Assembly (NCBI GenBank): GCA_025462725.1
Contig: JAOAPE010000002.1
Span: 124,001 to 188,000, forward strand
DNA length: 64,000 bases
Origin: Terriglobales bacterium
Lineage (GTDB): Bacteria; Acidobacteriota; Terriglobia; Terriglobales; Acidobacteriaceae
Direction of reading: 5' to 3'
Part shown: piece by piece, positions 1 through 5,943 of the stretch
Layout of the letters: every line of letters begins with the position of its first letter
Numbering within the stretch: the first letter of the stretch is position 1
Program-made: the position numbers and the translations under genes
The notes under the pieces: generated by a model
What the model was told of the DNA's origin: nothing
Seen by the model: the letters and a program-made list of their open reading frames with translations, nothing else
Databases searched by the model: none

Positions 1-82
1 AGCAACGTGACAGCTTTAGTATTCTTTGAGTGTGTCCAATCCCGACGCCGTTGATTGACCACATCGCGGGCCTCTGAATCAC
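1..82 (-). CDS. Probable glycosyltransferase, N-terminus only (runs off window)
   Basis: A reading frame opens at a GTG (80-82) overlapping the TGA stop of the upstream GNAT gene in the GTGA arrangement typical of translational coupling, and stays open to the window edge. About 27 residues are visible. They contain a GVGIGHTQR stretch, which resembles the N-terminal G-x-GH-x2-R nucleotide-sugar loop of GT-B glycosyltransferases related to MurG. An internal ATG seven codons in is an alternative start. Together with the deacetylase and acyltransferase upstream this suggests a cell-surface or exopolysaccharide modification operon. The glycosyltransferase call is inference from one short motif. 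Confidence 0.45.
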   Translation of the reverse strand, partial: MIQRPAMWSINGVGIGHTQRILKLSRC

Positions 83-1002
83 CATGGGAATTGATCCATA
101 TCAGAGTCGGAGAATGAAATGTAAGCGTTCTCAAATGCCTTTCCAAAAAAGCCTGCGGGGAGGTTTGTTGTAATGGGATAGACACTCCGAGGTCTCCATC
201 CCTCGGCTTCCAATTGCAAACATTCTAGCTCTGTTGTTCCGGACGTTCGCACAGTGGTACATCCAGCGCCGAAAAGATATCGCATTCCAAGCGACCTGAG
301 TTCCGCTATTTTGGATTTATCTTCACAGAATATATCGGTAATCAGGCCCGTGCCGAATCGCTTGTATCCACATTTCCGTACTAGTACTACATCGGGCCCA
401 ACCGATATTTGCCAATATTCCGCGAAAGGTTGGGCTGCGTATCGCCATTTACAGTAGCTTTCAGTCCGCTTCACATAGAAAGTTCGGTCTCGCAATGCTC
501 GAAAAGCGCTCTCCGCGATTGTACTCGGGTCAGGAACAGAAATCTTTATCTCGTCTGATCTTATTGAATGGCAAGATGAAACTGAAACGCTCTGTTCATA
601 AATTTTCAGTTCTCCAACAAGGTAGTCTCCAGTCTTAAGCTTTAGATCCACGTTTTTTGCGGACATCCACGTGCTGAGAATTCCAAAGCACTGTTTACCG
701 CTGAATCTATGCACCTCACTACTAACCCCCATGTTTCGAAAATGTGCCAAGACAAAGTTGTCGATAGCCCAGTGGAAGACGCAAGAATTGCCGTTCATCG
801 CAATATCTGTCCTTAGAAGTCCTTGGTGCCCGATTATCGCCCCGTCCGCAGAAGCGACAACTGAGACCGCGTGCCTACCGTAAAGCCATTCCCACCGTTC
901 GGGAAATTTGAATGCAAAACGTCCGGGGTAGGCTTGTTGGAGGAAGGTCTTGATCAGTTCATTTTTGTCGGACTCGCGTGTCAGTAAACTTATGGAGTAC
1001 AC
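79..1002 (-). CDS. GNAT-superfamily N-acetyltransferase-like protein
   Basis: A 307-residue protein with a GNAT-like N-terminal half: a predicted beta-strand (residues about 75-90) followed by FRNMGVSSEV, which fits the R/Q-x-x-G-x-G/A acetyl-CoA pyrophosphate loop in degenerate form. The C-terminal half, about 150 residues, has no motif I recognise and may be a second GNAT fold. The start overlaps the end of the deacetylase gene by 44 bp, and the stop overlaps the next gene, so all three are probably one transcript. Likely role: acylation of a surface sugar or of a lipid-linked intermediate. Known: GNAT enzymes of this size occur in polysaccharide loci. Inferred: the substrate class. Confidence 0.6.
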   Translation of the reverse strand: MYSISLLTRESDKNELIKTFLQQAYPGRFAFKFPERWEWLYGRHAVSVVASADGAIIGHQGLLRTDIAMNGNSCVFHWAIDNFVLAHFRNMGVSSEVHRFSGKQCFGILSTWMSAKNVDLKLKTGDYLVGELKIYEQSVSVSSCHSIRSDEIKISVPDPSTIAESAFRALRDRTFYVKRTESYCKWRYAAQPFAEYWQISVGPDVVLVRKCGYKRFGTGLITDIFCEDKSKIAELRSLGMRYLFGAGCTTVRTSGTTELECLQLEAEGWRPRSVYPITTNLPAGFFGKAFENAYISFSDSDMDQFPW

Positions 1003-1600
1003 GATAAGAACTCGGAAAGAAATTTCGTAAATCGATGTGGGGTATCTTCATCGAAGAGTAGTGAGCAACAATTCTCGATGTCAACTCCAGACAGAAACTG
1101 CGATCAAGATATTCGCAATTCGGAGCGACGCCGTCGTGCAATAGGATGATGTCCTGATTCTTTAAAGTGAAAACAGACGATATTGCTTCCTTTCGACTTG
1201 GAAGCCAATCTTGGAGCTTTGCTGACCAAAGAATCATCACAGACTGAGGCGCGATTTCTGTGCCACATTTCTCCAAATCTCCATAGGGCGGGCGGATGAA
1301 CTGGCTCTCAATGTGGAATTCTTTCCGCAGTTTTTTTGTCATTGCTTCAAAATCGCAGTCTACGCCACGGACGTGAAGCAAACCGTGATTGCCAATGATA
1401 TGTCCCTGCTCAATCGCTTCGAACAAGGTGTTCCTGTTCTCCTTATTCTTGAGTGATGCCCCGGTTACAAAAAATATTGCGCTAATACCAAAATCAGCGA
1501 GAATGCGTAAGAGAGGGCGCGTTACTGTCGAGTTTGGGCCATCGTCAAAGCTTAGGCAGTATCCTGTACAGGGCAACTTTCGAATCACTTGCATGAGCAA
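959..1600 (-). CDS. Polysaccharide deacetylase (CE4, NodB-like)
   Basis: A 213-aa protein with the CE4 esterase motifs in order: SFDDGP (residues 17-22, catalytic base and metal Asp), NHGLLH (71-76, the two metal-binding His), RPPYG (103-107) and the C-terminal LLHDG loop holding the second catalytic His. There is no signal peptide and the size matches a bare NodB domain. It would remove N- or O-acetyl groups from a polysaccharide or lipid-linked sugar, using a divalent metal. It follows the Hsp70-like gene by about 100 bp and overlaps the GNAT gene. The ATG at 1600 is the only start that keeps the first strand before motif 1. Confidence 0.85.
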   Translation of the reverse strand: MLMQVIRKLPCTGYCLSFDDGPNSTVTRPLLRILADFGISAIFFVTGASLKNKENRNTLFEAIEQGHIIGNHGLLHVRGVDCDFEAMTKKLRKEFHIESQFIRPPYGDLEKCGTEIAPQSVMILWSAKLQDWLPSRKEAISSVFTLKNQDIILLHDGVAPNCEYLDRSFCLELTSRIVAHYSSMKIPHIDLRNFFPSSYRVLHKFTDTRVRQK

Positions 1601-1702: not shown

Positions 1703-2980
1703 CTAGCTCTGAAGTTTGTTCGGCAAAGGAAGTGAAATTGGAGGAACGCCGTCACGGTGGAGTAATGCCAATCCTTTGGTAACCGCGCAAAGGCAAGTTT
1801 CGACATCTGCGGGGTTGCTTGGGTTAGGCAAGACAAAGCGATCTTCGGGTACATGCTTGAACAATGCGACGACTGTTTGCTGTACGACAGGGCTCAGGGC
1901 AGAGCCACCGCTCAACACGACATATGTAATATCTGACATCGTTCGCCCGTTTTTGTAAATTACTTCCATGGTGCGGGCGACCATCCGTGTCATAATTGGG
2001 CTAAGTGCAAATGCGATATCTGCTCTGTCGAGAAGTAGCTCTTCCGTATCCAAACCGGGTAAGCGCACCTGCACACTATCCGTCCTAGACAGTTCGATTT
2101 TTGCTTTCTCTACATTCCGAGAAATACGCTGCTTTGCGACAGGTTTTAGGGATTCGTATTTTTGAGCGGATTGTCCGCCAGCCTTTTCAAGACAACGCAA
2201 GACGAGCGCCTTATCCATTTTGGCGCCGCCTTCCGGAAATCCGCCCTGGCTAATGGTGCTCATGTTGATATTCATATGTTCATCGACATGCGACACACAA
2301 ATATCTAGAGTTCCCCCACCATAATCAAGTACTAAAAGATTGCCAGGTTTGGTGATTTGCAGGTACGCCCTGGCCGCAGCCAGCGGCTCAGAGTACATCA
2401 CCACGTTGTCATAACCTGCATCAGGTCCGAAGGCGCCCAGCTTAACTGCTTCCCGAACCATTCTTCTGCCACTGTCGCCGAATGTCGCTGGCACGCCGAC
2501 CGCGACAAGCTTTCTTGTATGATCCCTAAAGTTTGCGGTACGTGCCAAATGTTTAACAATCTTGGCTGTCCCTGGGACAAATTGTGCACGTGTTAACGGA
2601 ACGTCCGCGGCATAAACCGCTTGGTATCTCTTTTTTTTCTCGGGAGTAAGGAAGCCTCCCTCGTCACGTAGCACCCAATCCTCTCGGACTTCCACCATCG
2701 ACGGCTCGCTGATAGTGCTCTGGTCGAAGGAAAGCTTCATTTCTTGCAGGAGCATTGTGTCATGCCCTGTCTCAAAATAATGCCTCAGGGCTGGGTGTCC
2801 GAACATTTCTGGCGCATTCTGACACTCTACGTTCTTGCAGTCACAGACTGCGGATGGCAAAACAGATGGATCATAGCTGTCTTCGTCGCCGTACTCCAAA
2901 GAGACCACTCTCGGCACTTGATCAGACGGTTCCATCACTGCTACCGAGGAGTTAGTTGTTCCAAAATCAATCGCTATCAT
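1703..2980 (-). CDS. Hsp70-like ATPase, nucleotide-binding domain only
   Basis: Actin/Hsp70 ATPase motifs are clear: phosphate-1 IDFGTTNSSVAVM at the N-terminus, phosphate-2 LVLDYGGGTLDICV mid-protein and the adenosine motif VLSGGSAL near the C-terminus. At about 425 aa it is only slightly longer than an Hsp70 nucleotide-binding domain, and no beta-sandwich substrate-binding domain or lid follows. The chosen ATG (2980) has a GGAG six bases upstream. The start lies inside the last 14 codons or so of the 788-aa gene, so the two are translationally coupled. No DnaJ or GrpE gene is nearby. It is probably a dedicated ATPase switch for its partner rather than a general chaperone (inference). Confidence 0.85.
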   Translation of the reverse strand: MIAIDFGTTNSSVAVMEPSDQVPRVVSLEYGDEDSYDPSVLPSAVCDCKNVECQNAPEMFGHPALRHYFETGHDTMLLQEMKLSFDQSTISEPSMVEVREDWVLRDEGGFLTPEKKKRYQAVYAADVPLTRAQFVPGTAKIVKHLARTANFRDHTRKLVAVGVPATFGDSGRRMVREAVKLGAFGPDAGYDNVVMYSEPLAAARAYLQITKPGNLLVLDYGGGTLDICVSHVDEHMNINMSTISQGGFPEGGAKMDKALVLRCLEKAGGQSAQKYESLKPVAKQRISRNVEKAKIELSRTDSVQVRLPGLDTEELLLDRADIAFALSPIMTRMVARTMEVIYKNGRTMSDITYVVLSGGSALSPVVQQTVVALFKHVPEDRFVLPNPSNPADVETCLCAVTKGLALLHRDGVPPISLPLPNKLQS

Positions 2981-5333
2981 TGTCATCTCCACTTCGAACA
3001 ATCAATGAAGTCGCAATTACTTTTCGTTCCGCTGTAGTCAACCCGTGAGTAAAGATCCTTGGCGTCCCTGTTCTAGATGGATCTTTGAGAGCTCTATGCT
3101 TAATCGCATTCATATCATGCGCACTCTTTGGCACCCCGAGTTGTGGTTCAATAGGTTGCAATCCGATCTCATTCAATCTCGACCTGAACACGTAATACCC
3201 GGCGATTTCGGATTCAATGTCGCCGAGTTCTGTTCGAAGTGCCATTCCCAACTCTTCGAGCAATAACCCCTCAACAGCGCTCATTCGAGCTTTGATAACA
3301 TCCTTCCGCTGAGACCACAGCACATGGGCCGCAGAAATCTGCTGCCAAATAGTCTCAGGCGAAGGCCACTGCCCCTTGACGTCAAACAACTGCCTTACAG
3401 CCCAATCATTCTTGCCTAGGAAAAGACATAAAAAACTTTCGTATGGCGGCTGTTCTCGGAATAACCTCTTCAAGAAGTCTTCGCTTTCGAACTCAACCGG
3501 AATCGACGATACATCCGGAATTGCAGCAGCCTCCCATGCCGGTGCTGCAGCTTGCACCCATTTCTCAATGATAACTTGAAGAGAATCGTAGTGTGTTGCG
3601 AGCTCCCGAAGTCCGGCTATAGTCGTCCTTGCTGCCGCCAATCCGGAGAACAGCTCACTGGCAAACTTCATTTTGACTTCACGCACTCTAGTCGGCCACG
3701 ACTCTGATAATGTGGAATATTCTGCTACGTTACGGAGAGTGGCCTTTGCCAAACCCGCCGCAGAGTTGCGCAGGAACTGTCGATCAGTGACTAACTCAAA
3801 AAAAAGTCCTGCGGACGCAGTACTCCTTATGGTGGTAGGCACTGCTTCATCAAAAGTCCACGTCTTCCAGTCGTTCACTTCTTTCCATGGAATCCTTTGT
3901 TCCAACATGACAATCTGCGACTCAAGCGGAAGGTCAAGTTCAGCCAAAACCCGAATTCTCTCAGAAGGCAGGTCAGAATCAAAAAGCTCACTGAACCACT
4001 CCGCAAACTGCTTTTTGATCTCTCCTTTTTGTGCCAATACGCCAACGCTAACTTGCTTTCGGTGCAAGACGTCAACCAGTCTTTTAGTTGTTGACACACC
4101 CAATAAGACCGAAGCTTCTAGCAGCGGACTGAACAGTTCTGAAACCAATTTGTCTGGATAACTAATGAACGACTCGATTAAGGAGCTCACGTTCTGTACC
4201 TGAGAAGTCTGTACATACTTCACCAATAATCGCTTTATGAAAGGCGGCTTCAATTCCTGAAATGGAACGTCACGTTGGGACTCATAGTTACTTAGCCACT
4301 CTGAAATCCTGCCGTTCCTGTCGACACTTGCTGCTCGTCGTAGTACTGAATCGAATTGCTTCGATGTTCGATCACCAATTCGCAGAAGTGCCGACGTAGC
4401 CGCTAAAGCCATCAAATGGGACCGGGATTTTGCTAACTTCTCGATATCCGTGCGACACCGAATCAGAAGGTTTGGATGTTCTTTTCGCATTAAATCCAAG
4501 TGAGCGGAAACAAACATGTCATCAACGGCCTTCGTTCGGAGCGAATCATGAAAGGATTGTTCTAGTTTCTGAGGATCGAGCATTGAATACGCGAGAGCAA
4601 CAACGGGATACCTTACGGCGGCGACAGTCGCTTCGGCGCGATTGCGAGTTGGAGAACTCTCTGCGAGCAAATAAATCAAGAGCCCAAGTCGGAAAAGGAC
4701 AAACTTGCCGAAAGCAACAGCACTGGTACTGAAAAAGATATTCTCGGCAAGCCCCAACAGGTCCGCACGACGCTCTTCGGGCAATTTGTCAAAAAAACTC
4801 CGCTGTTTGCGGGGCACTACCGACGCAAGCTCAAACAATTGGGACAGAGAGTTCGAAAAGACCTCAGCGGTTCGGTCTTCTAGTTGATACGCTGCTTTTT
4901 CTCCGCGCGATAGCCACACTTTGAATTGACTTGTTAGCGGCCCGCCCTCGACTTTCCTTAGCGCATTCTCGACGAAATCTCCGCTTTCTTCTGAGAGAGC
5001 AATCAACGTTAATACACGATTTCTTGGATTTGCCTTTGCTAAGGCTACTTCATAGGCGATCCGCTTGAACTCTTCTGGTAGCCGGGGAAGTTCAGACAGG
5101 AATGTAGCCCTTTCTGGTCCTTGAACACCTTTCTCAACCAGTTCCCGCGTGGCTCTATCACGTCCCGCGAGCCAATCGTTGTACTCCTCCCGTAGTTCCG
5201 CTTTTTTCTTTATTTCAACCGTTCGATAGTCATGACCTCTAGTTCTTAAGAACTCATTAAATCCGTTTGGGTCATTGGACGAATATCGCCAATCCTCAGA
5301 CAGTGTCGAGTTCGTGAAGAAGCTATTCTGCAA
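2967..5333 (-). CDS. Large alpha-helical protein, partner of the Hsp70-like ATPase
   Basis: A 788-aa protein I do not recognise. It is almost entirely helical by eye, with regularly spaced Leu/Ala-rich amphipathic helices of 15-20 residues, consistent with a HEAT/ARM-type solenoid. There is one hydrophobic stretch near residues 215-230 (FVLFRLGLLIYLLAE) that is probably a buried helix rather than a membrane span. No catalytic motif, signal peptide or zinc ligand set is visible. The C-terminus is acidic (GDDNDSD) and overlaps the start of the Hsp70-like gene, implying coupled synthesis and probably a complex. Codon use looks more AT-tolerant than in the core genes after 6 kb. Function unknown. 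Confidence 0.75.
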   Translation of the reverse strand: MQNSFFTNSTLSEDWRYSSNDPNGFNEFLRTRGHDYRTVEIKKKAELREEYNDWLAGRDRATRELVEKGVQGPERATFLSELPRLPEEFKRIAYEVALAKANPRNRVLTLIALSEESGDFVENALRKVEGGPLTSQFKVWLSRGEKAAYQLEDRTAEVFSNSLSQLFELASVVPRKQRSFFDKLPEERRADLLGLAENIFFSTSAVAFGKFVLFRLGLLIYLLAESSPTRNRAEATVAAVRYPVVALAYSMLDPQKLEQSFHDSLRTKAVDDMFVSAHLDLMRKEHPNLLIRCRTDIEKLAKSRSHLMALAATSALLRIGDRTSKQFDSVLRRAASVDRNGRISEWLSNYESQRDVPFQELKPPFIKRLLVKYVQTSQVQNVSSLIESFISYPDKLVSELFSPLLEASVLLGVSTTKRLVDVLHRKQVSVGVLAQKGEIKKQFAEWFSELFDSDLPSERIRVLAELDLPLESQIVMLEQRIPWKEVNDWKTWTFDEAVPTTIRSTASAGLFFELVTDRQFLRNSAAGLAKATLRNVAEYSTLSESWPTRVREVKMKFASELFSGLAAARTTIAGLRELATHYDSLQVIIEKWVQAAAPAWEAAAIPDVSSIPVEFESEDFLKRLFREQPPYESFLCLFLGKNDWAVRQLFDVKGQWPSPETIWQQISAAHVLWSQRKDVIKARMSAVEGLLLEELGMALRTELGDIESEIAGYYVFRSRLNEIGLQPIEPQLGVPKSAHDMNAIKHRALKDPSRTGTPRIFTHGLTTAERKVIATSLIVRSGDDNDSD

Positions 5334-5340
5334 TTTAATT

Positions 5341-5943
<603 letters not shown>

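Follow-up and report, generated by a model that had tools for sequence, protein, structure and literature searches.

Results

The window analyzed here is a stretch of 64,000 nt (contig JAOAPE010000002.1, positions 124,001 to 188,000, forward strand) from a Terriglobales bacterium (GCA_025462725.1). Its minus strand carries two overlapping genes, the first encoding a 788-aa orphan protein (2967..5333) and the second an Hsp70-type ATPase domain of 427 aa without a substrate-binding domain (SBD; 1703..2986, read from the ATG at 2986). The ORF list places both frames on the minus strand at 1703-3001 and 2967-5333, exactly as in the initial annotation. That annotation had also placed the Hsp70 start inside the end of the larger gene; the overlap is real, but its length is 20 nt (2967..2986), or 14 nt with the ATG at 2980, and not 35 nt. 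The listed Hsp70 start, TTG 3001, is probably not used, and ATG 2986 or ATG 2980 is preferred because the resulting N-terminus (MTMIAIDFGTTNSS from ATG 2986, MIAIDFGTTNSS from ATG 2980) fits Hsp70 N-termini better. The overlap suggests co-expression of the two proteins, and we infer co-translation as well. No published description of this pair was found in the literature searched.

The smaller protein matches the Pfam HSP70 family at 1.8e-25 and 89.6 bits (cut-off 20.6), with the best stretch at residues 145-386, and the NCBIfam DnaK model over columns 3-354 of 625. As the curated cut-off is passed and the phosphate-1 and phosphate-2 motifs are present, we assign it by sequence to the Hsp70 superfamily, as a nucleotide-binding domain (NBD). 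The protein had been described as stopping right after this domain, and it does: the profile match covers the NBD only, and in the NBD alignment the C-terminus (VTKGLALLHRDGVPPISLPLPNKLQS) lines up with the point at which the DnaK NBD finishes. Both the SBD and the conserved linker of DnaK-type proteins are missing. The gap between the Hsp70 stop and the next gene is 102 bp, and it holds no SBD or SBD remnant. Recent truncation was considered as the cause of the SBD loss and rejected, since no remnant is left in the downstream DNA.

Alignment to E. coli DnaK (1dkg) and to other NBDs indicates that the phosphate-binding motifs are kept (residues numbered from ATG 2986). The phosphate-1 motif (D7, G9, T10, and T11), the catalytic glutamate (E200), and the phosphate-2 motif (D221, GGGT, and D228) are all in place, and 73 of the 158 columns conserved in 22 same-class DnaKs are retained. 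The position of the catalytic lysine, K70 of DnaK, holds a glutamate, with a lysine two residues further on, so ATP hydrolysis is likely rather than certain. The positions through which DnaK contacts DnaJ have changed (R167 to V196 and N170 to S199), and the T173 position is L202. R167 and the linker are required for J-domain action (PMC7289447, PMC8215388). With these three residues and the linker lost, DnaJ-type control is unlikely. The earlier proposal that this Hsp70 could not act alone as an ordinary chaperone is thus borne out by the missing SBD and linker and by the loss of the DnaJ-contact residues. A search of the window and of the 76 kb to its left revealed no J-domain-like pattern, and the contig gave no GrpE match, GrpE being present on other contigs only, in line with the reported absence of both co-chaperones nearby. 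Separately, a 3310-bp contig of the assembly (C30) has an apparently very high G+C content and GrpE- and ClpB-like frames; it is unlike the remaining genome and may be contamination.

In a FastTree phylogeny of NBDs, the query forms a long branch (length 1.7) that groups with DnaK (support 0.987), while YegD-like NBD-only sequences fall outside this group; its identity to DnaK is 26-31%. Two secondary matches were obtained, one to MreB that passes the cut-off of that family (1.1e-7) and one to the phage partition family phrog_691 (6e-4). These would fit an actin-like function for a mobile element, in which the ATPase serves as a filament or segregation partner resembling ParM, MreB, or Alp and the 788-aa protein is its adaptor. 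We consider this very improbable: the Hsp70 match is far stronger, the tree places the protein beside DnaK, the MreB match reflects a common fold, and an integrated island needs no segregation filament.

The 788-aa ORF is a true gene, not an accidental reading frame, since in eight of eight consecutive blocks its own frame has the best coding score and leads the other five by a wide margin. Where translation begins is uncertain; TTG 5333 is the first start codon, has no obvious ribosome site, and is followed by a first internal methionine only at residue 251. The protein has no match in Pfam, NCBIfam, PADLOC, PHROGs, or the PDB, and no effector domain was recognizable in it. Single-sequence AlphaFold2 gave 38 helices for the full protein at low confidence (pLDDT 38), and for residues 640-788, again without an alignment, a 64-residue helix at about 659-722 (pLDDT 51). 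Both models are too poor to use, and we describe the protein as probably alpha-helical.

The C-terminus raises the possibility that the large protein serves this Hsp70 domain alone, as its nucleotide-exchange factor or regulator, with a long helix and a small GrpE-like C-terminal domain, or as a helical-repeat factor that works like Fes1 and HspBP1. In either form, the pair would make up a self-contained, specialized Hsp70 machine that has a client of its own. Inspection by eye suggests a likeness between the final 70 residues (GLQPIEP...GTPRIFTHGLTTAERKVIATSLIVRS) and the C-terminal domain of GrpE, hhalign selects the same register at GLQPIE, and AlphaFold2 puts the 64-residue helix just before this segment. 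The profile score of the segment was reached by 5 of 400 shuffled sequences and by 10 of 468 real C-termini, although the corresponding p-values of 0.01-0.02 are optimistic because the idea arose after the sequence was seen. However, the HMMER and hhalign scores against GrpE are non-significant and exceeded by shuffled sequences, the C-terminus has no Pfam match even at E<=10, and the AlphaFold2 fragment has no beta strands at the GrpE-like segment (pLDDT under 50). On balance, we regard an exchange factor as rather unlikely and keep the GrpE-like C-terminus as a lead that the formal tests do not support.

Relatives were sought at BLAST sensitivity with one query sequence, and remote homologues may exist. 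For the 788-aa protein, none was found in a set of genome contigs, in 150 class, 396 phylum, and 398 family genomes (overlapping sets), or in plasmids, phages, and viral contigs; none was found either in two other phyla (331 and 349 genomes) or in five further genomes, although these last searches had no positive control and carry little weight by themselves. Two matches in the phylum set (E 0.003-0.009) were discarded, being short and fragmentary and lying in frames that do not resemble the query. For the Hsp70 protein, the only relatives in 299 class genomes were ordinary DnaKs scoring about 68 bits, plasmids and phages gave only DnaK-level matches, and the viral set gave no match. A scan for DYGGGTLDIC-type motifs over 84,980 species returned, among the matches listed, mainly YegD-like NBD-only proteins; none of these was nearer to the query than DnaK is, nor did any have a large partner encoded by an overlapping gene. 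PADLOC matched neither protein to its known antiphage models. The pair is absent from about 400 same-family genomes, as would be expected of mobile cargo.

The lack of relatives and the weak start signals of the larger gene could also mark a relic in decay, in which a DnaK-like gene has been stripped of its SBD next to an ORFan and has no present function, in an island that holds many transient genes. We find this quite unlikely, as the two overlapping frames are intact over 788 and 427 codons with a uniform coding signal, the ATP motifs are conserved, and no trace of an SBD lies downstream.

Next in the same direction is a NodB-like polysaccharide deacetylase gene (959..1600, minus strand; ORF list and Pfam/NCBIfam), which may be co-transcribed with the pair. 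It overlaps a gene for an acetyltransferase-like protein (79..1002, minus strand), recognized by eye with no family match above cut-off, that may belong to the same transcript. No strong terminator-like site was found in the intervening gap between the Hsp70 and deacetylase genes. Genes for a UDP-glucose dehydrogenase, a GT8-like protein, and a kinase-like protein come next, and the stretch between the pair and a Shango system further to the left holds glycan and nucleotide-sugar genes. This arrangement, with a shared strand, short spacing, and further glycan genes beyond, would suit a housekeeping role in which the pair regulates or assembles the deacetylase, the acetyltransferase-like protein, and the glycosyltransferases. 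It is an unlikely role in our view, however, as a deacetylase and an acetyltransferase have no evident need for a dedicated ATPase, and we know of no such Hsp70 pair in glycan loci.

On the other side of the pair, ARAGORN predicts a tRNA-Pro(CGG) gene (5867..5943, minus strand) whose 3' end faces the island and serves as the integration target. A 55-bp perfect direct repeat, att-like in character, covers the tRNA 3' end plus the adjoining 6 bp (5861..5915); its far copy lies outside the window, 71 kb to the left and in the same orientation (C40:58680-58734). This copy escaped a first att search, which used 11-14-mers and extended up to 40 kb from the window, and was found in the genus search. 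Judged from these sequences, the tRNA-Pro end is a real integration site, and the repeat bounds a 71-kb island with the gene pair at its tRNA end. The G+C content is 49.6% inside the island and 53.6% to its right, dropping at the tRNA from about 54% to about 48%. The same-genus genome G713 has another, partial repeat approximately 320 bp past the tRNA, with a porin gene beyond it, a sequence arrangement that identifies a nearly empty site. From sequence, the tRNA-Pro site seems to act repeatedly as an integration hot spot.

The end of a tyrosine integrase gene lies 12 bp ahead of the far repeat copy; the gene may belong to a neighboring element, given its position outside the 71-kb segment. 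Three more integrase genes lie inside the segment. The island also contains a complete Shango system (SngA, SngB, and SngC; G000:C40:103859-109666, equivalent to L221:859-6666, minus strand) approximately 16 kb to the left of the pair, along with genes for HATPase, radical-SAM, adenine methyltransferase, HerA/TrwB-like, and replication-relaxation proteins. The comparison to a defense or regulatory island made in the initial annotation finds support in the tRNA integration site, the 55-bp repeat, and the Shango system 16 kb away. A second HATPase/radical-SAM set lies to the left of the far repeat, which suggests tandem islands.

Several further observations were made in and around the island. 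The HATPase (HSP90/MORC-like) and radical-SAM genes form two closely similar pairs in neighboring island segments (L069:9231-12367 and L212:4898-8115, both minus strand), for which PADLOC gave no match. To the left of the far repeat, a gene for a DndH/HerA-like ATPase (L212:1008-4892, plus strand) adjoins an HATPase gene and one for a protein of unknown family, making a candidate conflict operon. More fragments of the tRNA-Pro 3' end occur in this and same-genus genomes (G000:C74:7018, C51:19260, and C51:4008; L214:1929; L219).

Discussion

The reading that we favor, tentatively, treats the pair as a module of two co-expressed proteins that the tRNA-Pro island carries as cargo; in this module, a dedicated ATPase switch would work with a helical partner. 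Within it, a stable complex between the Hsp70 domain and the 788-aa protein is probable. A role for the pair in defense or conflict is possible, though more doubtful than not; it is favored by the company the pair keeps in the island and by the precedent of SBD-less Hsp70s in predicted conflict systems (PMC7159879). Set against this reading is the lack of any homologue that would give conservation, repeated pairing, or a repeated defense context. Further points against it are the absence of a PADLOC match and of a recognizable effector domain, the ordinary glycan and nucleotide-sugar genes that separate Shango from the pair, the identity of the next gene downstream, a deacetylase, the poor structure models, and the glutamate at the K70 position.

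Such a module might operate in three steps. The Hsp70 domain would bind and slowly hydrolyze ATP, acting as a nucleotide-dependent switch and not as a chaperone. The 788-aa protein would be its constant partner, replacing the missing SBD and co-chaperones, and would be bound differently in the ATP and ADP states. A change in nucleotide state would then turn on or release an activity of the 788-aa protein. The trigger would most plausibly be a phage or a competing mobile element; upkeep of the island is a less plausible purpose.

Known systems resemble the pair in part. DnaK (PF00012/TIGR02350) shares the NBD fold and ATP motifs and is the nearest group in the tree, whereas the query lacks the SBD and linker, has lost the DnaJ-contact residues, and is encoded beside an orphan partner gene. 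The YegD-type Hsp70s (PRK11678) are similar in being about 430-500 aa in length and consisting of an NBD with no SBD. However, the query scores 61.2 bits against a cut-off of 331 for that family and lacks the long YegD insertion, and, unlike in the pair, none of the YegD-like loci examined has its Hsp70 gene overlapped by a large partner gene.

A third comparison is with the GAP1-N2 GTPase-centered conflict systems, which carry an HSP70, GrpE, and a second HSP70 lacking the peptide-binding domain (Kaur et al. 2020, PMC7159879). Common to these systems and the pair is an Hsp70 that lacks the SBD and lies where a role in conflict is predicted, but genes for the GTPase, FNIII repeats, and GrpE were not found among the scanned neighbors of the pair, whose partner is an orphan. 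CnuD of the CoCoNuT systems is an Hsp70-like protein with an NBD, an SBD, and HEAT-like helices that belongs with McrB and McrC homologues (PMC11090510). As in the pair, an Hsp70-like domain is combined with a helical partner region, in the case of CnuD within a defense system, but neither an McrB-like GTPase nor an McrC homologue was seen among the scanned island proteins.

A bolder proposal would be that the pair represents a two-gene defense module not yet described, made up of a large helical protein, either sensor or effector, and an SBD-less Hsp70 that serves as its ATP switch. Islands at tRNA-Pro genes would disseminate the module among Acidobacteriota-type bacteria, and the strong divergence of the large protein would have kept it out of current catalogues. 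We offer this as a conjecture with the chances against it. What lies at this integration hot spot is in any case a genuine and odd gene pair, and its orphan status makes it interesting. It also illustrates the kind of orphan defense-island gene that is invisible to catalogue-based searches. While SBD-less Hsp70s have been noted near conflict genes, few of their working partners are known. If the switch model is true, the pair would be a compact and testable example, within a defense-bearing island, of how an Hsp70 domain can act as a pure ATP switch.
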